This document shows, piece by piece, positions 2,295 through 4,630 of a stretch of DNA of 9,653 nt. The stretch is taken from the NCBI GenBank assembly GCA_945871545.1, contig CAMBWJ010000042.1, forward strand, positions 1 through 9,653, written 5' to 3'. Position numbers and translations under genes: made by a program. Every line of letters starts with the position of its first letter. Positions within the stretch are counted from its first letter, which is position 1. Under the pieces are notes generated by a model, which worked only from the letters and a program-made list of their open reading frames with translations, did no database searches and was not told the DNA's origin. This stretch comes from an uncultured Clostridia bacterium. GTDB taxonomy: Bacteria; Bacillota_A; Clostridia; Christensenellales; Aristaeellaceae.

Positions 2295-3527
2295 ATGGCA
2301 GGAAACGACAACCTTCACATGTCACACAACAACAAAGCAGATGAGTTTTACACTCAACTGAGTTTAATCGAAAGTGAGCTTAAACACTACAAGAGCTTCT
2401 TTCGTGGCAAGGTCGTACTGTGTAATTGTGATGATCCTTTTGAGAGTAACTTTTTCAAGTACTTTGCAATCAACTTCAATTCACTGGGGCTGAAAAAGCT
2501 AATTGCAACATGTTATGCAACTTCTCCCATTCTCTATACGCAGTTATCTATGTTCGGAGACGATATTGAAGTCCGTGACAAGAAAAACAAAAAGAAACCC
2601 TATAAGGTTGAAATAACTGAAGTCAGTGATGAAAATGGTGATGGACGCACTGACCTTGCAGATGTTGAATATCTGTTGAAAAATAAGAAAAATGTACTAT
2701 CACTTTTGAAAGGTGATGGTGATTTTCGCAGTCCTGAATGCGTAAAGCTTCTTCAGCAAGCCGATGTGGTTGTAACCAATCCCCCATTTTCACTATTTCG
2801 CGAATATGTCGCTTTGCTTGAATCAAACCGAAAGAAGTATATCATCATAGGCAACATGAACGCTGTCACATATAAAGAAATTTTCCCTTTGATTGCCGAG
2901 AACAGGCTATGGTTGGGATATAACAGCGGCCATTTTTGGTTCAAAGTCCCAGATTCCTACGAGGAAAAGAAAACCGATTTTAAGATTGATGAAAACGGTC
3001 AGAAATGGAGACGAATGGGTAATATATGCTGGTTTACAAATGTTGACATTGAAAAGAGGCATGAAAACTTACCACTATTCCGTAACTATTCACCCGAGAA
3101 ATATCCTAAGTATGACAATTACGATGCAATCAACGTGGATAGAACAGTGGACATACCTTGTGATTATTTTGGTGTTATGGGTGTTCCAATTACATTCCTT
3201 GCTCAGTACAATCCTGAACAATTTGAAATTGTTGCTTTTCGAAAAGGGAATGATGGAAAGGATCTAGTATACTCTTTCCCTGATTGTTCACAAATTGTTC
3301 ATGTAGAGAGAGAGAGAGAGAGAGAGAGAGAGAGAGAGAGAGAGAGAGAGAGAGACGAATTGTACGTCCATACTTCCGTGTGCTCATTCGACGAATACAG
3401 ACATCCCGCAGCTAACGGAGAACGCGCCTATGTCTATGGAAAACGTAAATACGCAAGATTGCTTATTCGACGACGTAATAAGACCAATAATCAATGGCAA
3501 GAAGTTATATCGTCGTATCACAATTAG
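2295..3527 (+). CDS. EcoRI-family adenine-N6 DNA methyltransferase with (GA)25 slippage tract and switchable C-terminus
   Basis: The product (410 aa in the present register) should transfer a methyl group from S-adenosylmethionine to N6 of adenine in a specific DNA site. Visible family hallmarks are NNKADEFYTQ (about 12-21), VVLCNCDDPFESNFFKYF (about 40-57), LGLKKLIATCY, the N6-adenine catalytic motif IV NPPF (162-165, in VVTNPPFSLFREY), a conserved IIGNMNAVTYKEIFPLI block, and GVPITFLAQYNPEQFEIVAF (about 296-315). These are recalled features of M.EcoRI-like enzymes; the actual target site cannot be read from sequence. Residues 338-353 are (Glu-Arg)8, encoded by an AG dinucleotide tract, followed by a 57-residue tail ending in YARLLIRRR and 15 more residues. 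The other two frames after the tract encode alternative tails with the same terminal motif. The gene is AT-rich against its GC-rich surroundings, which indicates transfer. It is followed by the DUF262-HNH gene, 11 nt after the stop. The family call is strong; tail function is unknown. Confidence 0.93.
   Translation: MAGNDNLHMSHNNKADEFYTQLSLIESELKHYKSFFRGKVVLCNCDDPFESNFFKYFAINFNSLGLKKLIATCYATSPILYTQLSMFGDDIEVRDKKNKKKPYKVEITEVSDENGDGRTDLADVEYLLKNKKNVLSLLKGDGDFRSPECVKLLQQADVVVTNPPFSLFREYVALLESNRKKYIIIGNMNAVTYKEIFPLIAENRLWLGYNSGHFWFKVPDSYEEKKTDFKIDENGQKWRRMGNICWFTNVDIEKRHENLPLFRNYSPEKYPKYDNYDAINVDRTVDIPCDYFGVMGVPITFLAQYNPEQFEIVAFRKGNDGKDLVYSFPDCSQIVHVERERERERERERERERDELYVHTSVCSFDEYRHPAANGERAYVYGKRKYARLLIRRRNKTNNQWQEVISSYHN
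3305..3355 (+). repeat. Uninterrupted dinucleotide microsatellite (AG)25-A inside the methyltransferase gene
   Basis: Fifty-one bases of perfect alternating A and G begin after GTA and end before CGAATT, with no interruption. Upstream reading frame is fixed, so the tract always encodes alternating Glu and Arg (16 codons at 25 units). Each gain or loss of one unit shifts downstream translation by 2 nt, so unit number modulo 3 selects the downstream frame: 1 (25, 22, 28) gives the present frame, 0 (24, 27) gives the tail ending at 3415, 2 (23, 26) gives the tail ending at 3558. Perfect tracts of this length are known hot spots for slipped-strand mispairing and drive phase variation in other bacterial methyltransferases. 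Confidence 0.97.
3356..3415 (+). other. Alternative methyltransferase C-terminus 1 (reached with 24 or 27 AG units)
   Basis: Reading codons from 3356, the frame gives RIVRPYFRVLIRRIQTSRS and stops at TAA 3413-3415. The motif YFRVLIRR covers 3371-3394. With 24 units the whole protein would be 372 aa, the shortest of the three forms, with the (Glu-Arg) tract joined almost directly to the terminal motif. The stop lies about 123 nt before the nuclease ATG. The segment resembles the end that EcoRI-family methyltransferases usually have (from memory of the family), so it may be the ancestral or minimal tail. Not used in the register of this sequence. Confidence 0.8.
3381..3473 (+). repeat. Degenerate tandem repeat linking the tail cassettes (79-nt offset)
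   Basis: The 14-mer TGCTCATTCGACGA at 3381-3394 recurs as TGCTTATTCGACGA at 3460-3473, 13 of 14 bases the same, 79 nt apart. Each copy is dual-coding: in one frame it writes the end motif of one tail (V-L-I-R-R, then L-L-I-R-R), in the next frame the entry block of the following tail (C-S-F-D-E, then C-L-F-D-D). Surrounding bases are diverged. 79 is 1 modulo 3, so an old tandem duplication of this length would place the second copy one frame over. A third motif copy follows 58 nt later (also 1 modulo 3). Confidence 0.75.
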
Positions 3528-3531
3528 GAGG
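3526..3531 (+). promoter_or_regulatory. Shine-Dalgarno of the nuclease gene, inside methyltransferase tail 3
   Basis: AGGAGG lies 7 nt before ATG 3539. It starts within the TAG stop of methyltransferase tail 2 and is read as Arg-Arg when the methyltransferase is in the tail-3 register. It fixes the nuclease start at 3539 rather than the in-frame ATG 3494, which lacks such a site. Confidence 0.85.
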
Positions 3532-3538
3532 AGAAGTC

Positions 3539-4630
3539 ATGCAAATCAAGTTACATGAAATCCCTGTCCGTGATGTTATCGATGGTTACATTGACAGCGC
3601 AGAAAACGGTGTGATCGGCTATGGTGGCCGCCTGAACATCCGCCCTGCCTTCCAGCGCGAATTCATCTACAAGGACAGGCAGCGGGATGAAGTCATCCGA
3701 ACCATCATGAAGAACTTTCCGCTGAACGTGATGTACTGGGTGAAGGGCGACGATGGAAATTACGAGGTGCTGGATGGTCAACAGCGCACCATCAGCATTT
3801 GCCAATATGTCAGCGGCGATTTTTCCATTGAGCACATGGGATTCGACAACCTGACCCAGACGGAGCGCGACCAGATTCTCAACTATCCGCTGATGATCTA
3901 CATCTGCGAAGGCAATGACAAGGAAAAGCTGGACTGGTTCAAGATCATCAACATCGCGGGCGAACAGCTGACCGCGCAGGAACTGCGCAATGCCATCTAT
4001 ACGGGTGAATGGCTGACGGAGGCAAAGAAGTATTTCAGCAAATCTTCCTGCCCTGCCTATCACATCGGCGGAGACTACATGAACGGTTCTGCAATTCGGC
4101 AGAACTATCTCGAAACAGCAATCAAATGGATTGCCGCACGGGACGGAATTGAAATTGAGGATTACATGGCGCAGCACCAGCATGACACCAATTGCAATGA
4201 GTTGTGGCTGTATTTCCAGTCCGTTATCAACTGGGTCAAGGTGGTCTTCCCGAAATACCGCAAGAAAATGAAGGGACTGGACTGGGGCATCTTCTACAAT
4301 AAATACGGTTCAGGGAAATACGACCCCAGGCAGTTGGAAACCCGCATCGTTGAGCTGATGGAGGACGAAGACGTTACCAAGAACTCCGGCGTGTACGAAT
4401 ACCTGCTGAGCGGCGATGAAAAACATCTGCACATCCGGTCATTCACCCCGAAAATGGCACGCGCGGCATATGAGCGTCAGAAGGGAATCTGTCCCTGGTG
4501 TGGAAAGCAGTTTGAGATCGACGAAATGCAAGCCGATCACATCACACCGTGGAGCAAGGGCGGTAAGACAAGTGCGGAGAACTGCCAGATGCTCTGTGCA
4601 GATTGCAACCGGCGAAAAAGCAATATCTGA
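3539..4630 (+). CDS. DUF262-HNH protein, probable restriction/defence nuclease partnered with the methyltransferase
   Basis: The 363-aa product combines two recognisable parts. An N-terminal DUF262 (ParB/GmrS-like) domain covers about residues 1-230, with RPAFQREF (35-42) and the hallmark DGQQR (79-83), associated in this superfamily with nucleotide-dependent nuclease control. A C-terminal HNH (beta-beta-alpha metal) domain covers about 305-363: zinc-type C318-x2-C321, the catalytic-type D-H at 333-334 in QADHITPWSKGG, N348, and C353-x2-C356 followed by NRRK. All expected HNH residues are present, so DNA cleavage is likely, though the target is unknown. Placement directly after an EcoRI-family methyltransferase suggests it cuts DNA lacking the partner's methylation; the alternative is a GmrSD-like modification-dependent (type IV) activity. 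The gene is clearly richer in GC than the methyltransferase but poorer than the chromosome. Domain calls are firm; biological role is inferred. Confidence 0.9.
   Translation: MQIKLHEIPVRDVIDGYIDSAENGVIGYGGRLNIRPAFQREFIYKDRQRDEVIRTIMKNFPLNVMYWVKGDDGNYEVLDGQQRTISICQYVSGDFSIEHMGFDNLTQTERDQILNYPLMIYICEGNDKEKLDWFKIINIAGEQLTAQELRNAIYTGEWLTEAKKYFSKSSCPAYHIGGDYMNGSAIRQNYLETAIKWIAARDGIEIEDYMAQHQHDTNCNELWLYFQSVINWVKVVFPKYRKKMKGLDWGIFYNKYGSGKYDPRQLETRIVELMEDEDVTKNSGVYEYLLSGDEKHLHIRSFTPKMARAAYERQKGICPWCGKQFEIDEMQADHITPWSKGGKTSAENCQMLCADCNRRKSNI

Follow-up and report, generated by a model that had tools for sequence, protein, structure and literature searches.

The window analysed here is a 9,653-nucleotide stretch of contig CAMBWJ010000042.1 (positions 1 to 9,653, forward strand) from an uncultured Clostridia bacterium of the Aristaeellaceae. 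It carries a methyltransferase gene in which a tract of 25 AG units near the 3' end is followed, in each of the three forward reading frames, by a different C-terminal tail, and each tail contains a version of the same short motif. The methyltransferase gene adjoins a nuclease gene, as in Type II restriction-modification. The features are:

2295..3527, plus strand: EcoRI-family adenine methyltransferase gene in its 25-unit register (410 amino acids, middle tail; PF13651 at 2.3e-144, PADLOC MTase_II at 1.8e-126)
3222..3239, plus strand: codons of residues 310-315 (FEIVAF), the strand preceding the tract as predicted in an AlphaFold2 model
3305-3354, plus strand: the (AG)25 tract, a frame selector by its sequence, translated as a Glu-Arg run
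3355..3415, plus strand: short tail S, read at 24 (or 27) units, with the motif YFRVLIRR at 3371-3394
3355..3527, plus strand: middle tail M, read at 25 units, with the motif YARLLIRR at 3450-3473 and a predicted terminal strand at residues 388-393
3355..3558, plus strand: long tail L, read at 26 (or 23) units, with the motif YRRITIRR at 3508-3531, overlapping the start of the nuclease gene
3539..4630, plus strand: partner gene for a DUF262 (GmrSD_N) and HNH nuclease of 363 amino acids (PF03235 at 2.6e-18, PF01844 at 7.2e-15, PADLOC REase_II at 1e-149)

The 25-unit protein matches profile positions 1-344 of 345 of PF13651 (EcoRI_methylase; the family is named in the available part of PMC7248222) at 481.4 bits, with a cut-off of 26.4 and an E-value of 2.3e-144. 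Across 90 aligned sequences the catalytic NPPF motif (N162, P163, P164 and F165) is invariant, as is R388, the arginine of YxR in the C-terminal YxRxxI strand, and Y386 and I391 are nearly so. Adenine-N6 methylation of a defined site is predicted from family membership. A sequence search found no relative of the EcoRI methylase family among solved structures. An AlphaFold2 model of the window's 25-unit form, built on the 90-sequence alignment, has a mean predicted local distance difference test (pLDDT) score of 81.7 and places strands at residues 310-315 and, terminally, at 388-393; the tract and the loop between both strands are modelled with low confidence. The model of an S-tailed database relative, P0023 (86 sequences, mean pLDDT 83.0), has its terminal strand at 354-359, with a ten-residue-block pLDDT of 86. 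Both modelled tails therefore provide the last strand. The YxR[ILV]xIR segment is thus predicted to be the final strand of a hairpin, separated from the preceding FEIV strand by the tract and a variable loop. Core residues 74-104 constitute a second variable surface loop, with a conservation of 0.37 over residues 81-100 (21 loci), uncorrelated with the tail.

When the number of units was varied computationally, translation from the ATG at 2295 gave proteins of 372, 410 and 421 amino acids at 24, 25 and 26 units, with stop codons ending at 3415, 3527 and 3558 and with 19 (S), 56 (M) and 67 (L) residues after the tract. In the entire window, the plus strand has no match to Y.R[VLI].IRR in any of its three frames beyond these three. 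The tract, unit numbers, lengths, tails and stops given by a sequence-only reading of this DNA were reproduced exactly, to the base. That reading had also judged chance a very unlikely source of the coincidence, and two controls bear it out. In the first, the protein of one frame was kept while its codons were recoded synonymously 20000 times, and this was repeated for each of the three frames; whichever frame was kept, both other frames were open and carried the motif in 0/20000 recodings.

The second control was comparative. A looser motif, [YF].[RK][ILVM].[IVT][RK], was run on collected methyltransferase loci (L numbers), of which 192 had a usable core match. Nine rows were left out (the re-fetches L059-L065; L150, a second match in one gene; and L066, a distinct one-tail locus omitted in error), leaving 183, among which near-identical pairs such as L110/L111 and L188/L189 were retained. 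Thirteen of the 183 have a non-triplet tract in the hairpin. The motif occurs in three open frames at eight of the 13, in two at L031 and L035, in one at L013 and in none at two, namely L159, which ends inside the tract, and L021, where the 700 bases examined contain no motif. Among the 170 tract-less loci the motif occurs in one frame at 148, in none at 22 and in two or three at 0. Two or more motif frames are thus found at 10/13 tract loci versus 0/170 tract-less loci (Fisher p = 3e-14, a value to be taken with caution because the loci compared are homologous and hence not independent). The three-frame coincidence of the motif is not due to chance.

Besides the window, the three-frame loci are L001, L151, L160, L162 and L181, which like the window have AG tracts (6 to 31 units), L174 with (AACGG)7, and L033 from Riemerella columbina with (GAGAA)12. 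The S tail type is also found on P0023 and in L001, L031, L151 and L181, the M type on P0002-P0006, and the L type on P0001 and in L001 and L151. L160, L162 and L174 have two tails in common despite their differing repeat unit; their S' and M' tails both finish in a nearly identical LYDR[IV]VIKR strand, and their third frames encode three different cassettes, each opening with a second copy of GVPITFLDKYNPEQF. Altogether, a repeat near the 3' end with every register reaching a new C-terminus appears to be present in the window and ten further loci. Over ten loci, the current in-frame register is the short one in two, the middle one in four and the last one in four. At the protein level, the longest residue repeat in the tail region has a period of 2 in 147, 5 in 26, 4 in 3 and 8 in 1 of the 240 homologues among the matches listed; no such repeat was found in the other 63, and periods 1, 3 and 6 were not seen. 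Repeat units were checked in DNA for the loci only, and a two-residue period could also reflect a six-base unit.

The remaining tract loci are more varied. At L035:4088-4500, two further GVPITF..NPxQF segments lie in different frames behind a GACA tract, and each register reaches a tail segment of its own; the three are similar to three classes of tail in tract-less enzymes. At L013:3998-4270 a G9 tract precedes one tail, and a second cassette, GVPITF..NPEQF..YTRILIRR, lies downstream in another frame with a stop codon upstream of it. The core of L021 is 86% identical to that of the window, and none of the tails follows its (AG)5 tract; its end may reflect decay or rearrangement.

Are all registers used? 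Isoforms can be counted among database entries, which are assembled proteins rather than cells, none of them from the window's own strain. Among the best 120 homologues listed, 55 carry L, 24 carry X, a fourth tail type (..KITYVRLTIRR), 19 carry M, 17 carry S and five carry none of these. Seventy-two proteins among the matches listed share at least 97% core identity with L151, with 46 L, 17 X, 7 S and 2 other tails; in 33 (22 L, 6 X, 5 S) the whole tail is an exact copy of one of L151's three virtual frames. In a second subfamily, found with L162, one cluster of 19 comprises eight M', five S' and six third-frame types. One core therefore occurs with three tails in database proteins, and every register appears to be in use. 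The tails of P0044 (S with L) and P0103 (an L lead with X) look like two-cassette fusions, such as deletions between cassettes would give.

These proteins support the central claim of the sequence-only reading, which held that every tract length yields a complete enzyme with a different tail. All three registers of one locus are found on near-identical cores, and the Glu-Arg run differs in length along with the tail among those 72 assembled sequences, so that tract length is not invariant across strains. Nor is there just one tail that aligns with the family C-termini: the end of the PF13651 profile (positions 343-345 of 345) is reached by 9/10 proteins scanned, representing the S, M, L and X tails and the middle tail of L033. 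For the tenth, the in-frame form of L035, the profile alignment ends at 304.

The tails of tract-less relatives form recurring classes when sorted by eye. Across 4753 pairs drawn from 98 tract-less loci with complete nuclease sequences, core identity correlates with nuclease identity at r = 0.73, core with tail at 0.26 and nuclease with tail at 0.18. L003 and L007, for example, are 87% identical in the core and 90% in the nuclease and just 21% in the tail; L070 and L191 are 43% identical in the core and 66% in the tail. Judged from these sequences, the switched segment, that is, the hairpin loop and terminal strand, is a module that varies nearly independently of core and nuclease. When tails were matched to 130 tract-less tails with shuffled controls, the third-frame cassettes of L160, L162 and L174 scored 171, 142 and 195 (controls at most 65), and the three segments of L035 scored 145, 64 and 91 (controls 65, 51 and 53). 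X tails also exceeded their controls (73 vs 60; 77 vs 66), as did the L-like tail of L033 (69 vs 57); the middle tail of L033 did not rise above its shuffled control (59 vs 59).

One tail class goes with a known endonuclease. EcoRI endonuclease homologues adjoin eight of the methyltransferases, and an open reading frame in L083 matches solved EcoRI structures at 7e-135. All seven EcoRI-linked enzymes with a readable tail carry the class FRKGx[DN]xKDL..PYFRI[IL], including L177, whose core is 44% identical to that of the window. We take this class (FRKGxDxKDL..PYFRILI) to be M.EcoRI-like. It also accompanies the DUF262 nuclease in L009, L087, L089 and L182, and the window's hairpin has the same opening, AFRKGNDGKDL. 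The pairing of the EcoRI endonuclease with one tail class supports a role of the tail in target choice; this is suggestive, not proof. In the tract-less L105, AFRKGEDGKDLVF is fused directly to QPYSRILVRR, an arrangement like the window hairpin minus tract and inserts. L194:1038-2453, from a Helicobacter phage, holds an EcoRI endonuclease gene and a methyltransferase annotated as two pieces, with no simple repeat listed for that interval.

A homologue of the partner nuclease is present in 135/192 loci (28-83% identity, the window aside). In 21 loci the nuclease is at least 74% identical to that of the window and the tails differ widely, suggesting that the nuclease is not alone in reading the target site. 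No separate specificity subunit was seen among the five window proteins scanned, a scan that did not cover every reading frame of the window. For the nuclease, PF07510 (DUF1524) was not listed at E <= 0.001; its C-terminal domain is the PF01844 HNH. Guanine-cytosine content is 36-40% over the methyltransferase gene (600-base windows) versus 62-70% in the flanks, and the methyltransferase-nuclease pair forms an AT-richer island at 2100-4700. One flank is a cluster of transglutaminase/DUF4129, DUF58 and MoxR-type ATPase genes; the other is a gene that we take, from its open reading frame, to be secA-like. The island likely arrived horizontally.

What does the frame selector do? We favour the view, and think it fairly probable, that slippage would determine which of three C-terminal cassettes is used and would likely alter the sequence that the enzyme methylates. 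At the sequence level it draws on the three tails, their recurrence elsewhere, the varied repeat units in the same place, the one core with three tails and the modular tail of tract-less members. Slippage of the tract would shift translation among three frames, each completing the hairpin with a different loop and its own version of the common last strand. Each register would presumably give a folded, active enzyme, with the hairpin loop participating in target recognition. Given how little the sequence of the DUF262-HNH nuclease tracks the tail, this enzyme would tolerate the switch. With no register dead, slippage would avoid a state of nuclease without methylation.

Several observations weigh against this view. 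With a nuclease resident in the cell, sites would still be left unmethylated for a while after specificity changes. The nuclease may carry a variable part of its own, since its differences are clustered in 3/10 pairs (p < 0.05), around residues 233-307. The window's L tail is barely above the control maximum (63 vs 59), and the S and M tails of the window (43 vs 46 and 56 vs 65) and the S' and M' tails of L162 (47 vs 56 and 58 vs 61) match no tract-less tail class above shuffled controls. The association between EcoRI endonuclease and tail class is weakly independent, because the cores of all but one of the seven EcoRI-linked enzymes are related and, of the eight endonuclease matches, three are partial by more than half. 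Finally, the current in-frame tail of L035 meets a stop before the last strand, the third tail of L031 is degenerate, and the motif is reached in one frame only at L013 and in none at L021.

Some of these points would fit a different role, in which all tails fold and serve the same target and slippage tunes only activity, stability or partner binding. The part conserved across tails is the terminal strand, which would be sufficient for folding, and the near-identical end strand shared by S' and M' in L160, L162 and L174 is what such tuning would lead one to expect, as are window S and M tails without a class and a nuclease whose sequence hardly follows the tail. However, the third-frame cassettes of L160, L162, L174 and L035 are whole different tail classes after a second GVPITF..NPEQF copy, which exceeds the need of mere tuning, and a tail class accompanies the EcoRI endonuclease. 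We regard this alternative as unlikely, though it is the strongest of the rivals.

Could the tract instead be an ordinary ON/OFF switch, with one productive tail and the others stable but inactive, or decoys? Such is the customary logic of phase-variable methyltransferases, and the very unequal loop lengths in the window are in keeping with it. But each register occurs as the current one in assemblies, all tail types extend to the end of the family profile, and the motif is retained in three frames at eight loci when an OFF state requires no conserved motif; we consider this improbable. More improbable still is that the register sets nuclease expression through translational coupling. The window's long frame does cross the nuclease start, with the middle frame stopping 12 bases and the short one 124 bases before it, and the geometry is similar in L001, L031, L151, L160, L162 and L174. 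Yet L033 and L181 have the nuclease gene upstream of the methyltransferase and keep all three tails, and coupling, which could operate in addition, would work without any conserved protein motif. Assembly errors arise easily in dinucleotide tracts, L021 lacks a tail motif after its tract and L031 and L013 are degenerate, but a degenerating gene end or mis-assembled repeat is scarcely credible when eight loci with three different repeat units have the same design, which is also found in many of the 240 homologues among the matches listed, with tails conserved exactly.

A wider proposal can be offered tentatively, with distinctly less assurance. A widespread class of restriction-modification systems, seen in Bacillota and Bacteroidota, may be frame-coded specificity selectors, each with one core, a tail-agnostic DUF262-HNH nuclease and three interchangeable target-recognition cassettes in overlapping frames behind any non-triplet repeat. 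A lineage would then pass from one to another of three methylomes, with as many restriction specificities, and would never enter an unprotected state; cassettes would be swapped between loci.

How does this compare with known systems? By the available parts of the reports, the closest concept is C-terminal phase variation, described in Helicobacter canadensis (PMC2823697) and Neisseria gonorrhoeae (PMC5320596), in which a simple repeat near the 3' end swaps the C-terminal residues among three frames while expression continues. Three-way switching of a C-terminus is therefore not without precedent. In the text available for those cases, where tails are tabulated by length, the ends reached in different frames are short or bear no relation to one another, and a PF13651-family enzyme is not described. 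In the present design the repeat unit is swapped from locus to locus and the tails persist. Its novelty lies in three frames that all encode termini homologous to each other and conserved in the family. The nearest example in which slippage alters specificity, from what is available of PMC6789123, is the Type I system NgoAV with its phase-variable hsdS, where a tract inside the specificity determinant alters the methylated motif rather than toggling ON/OFF. NgoAV yields full-length or truncated forms, as HsdS is cut short or restored through a G tract, to which the LEAT repeat number adds, and in the text available it too lacks homologous termini in all three frames. In the window, any one of three complete ends is joined to a single methyltransferase, whose motif would likely change with it. 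The phase-variable Type III methyltransferase of Mycoplasma mycoides likewise has an AG tract inside its gene; in the accessible part of PMC3498834 that repeat causes a translational stop, whereas no register of the window is closed before a complete end. GmrSD, as far as PMC4619093 is available, is similarly a single protein that combines an HNH-type nuclease with an N-terminal DUF262 (GmrS) domain, but the window's nuclease domain is PF01844 HNH rather than DUF1524 and is paired with a methyltransferase. Within its own family the enzyme is typical in its whole-length profile match, terminal strand motif included, and differs from the 170/183 loci that have no non-triplet tract, 148 of which are single-tailed. 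In the open-licence PubMed Central literature we found no account of a design with three homologous tails in PF13651 enzymes.

Phase-variable methyltransferases have mostly been described as ON/OFF toggles, and here three frames encode homologous ends. This is dense triple coding, maintained across distant genomes while the repeat unit changes, and it points to the C-terminal hairpin as the element of recognition that members of the EcoRI methylase family can exchange. Should the tails determine specificity, the system would show how specificity can change without a methylation-OFF state, and gut bacteria would carry a slippage-driven, three-way epigenetic and phage-defence switch.

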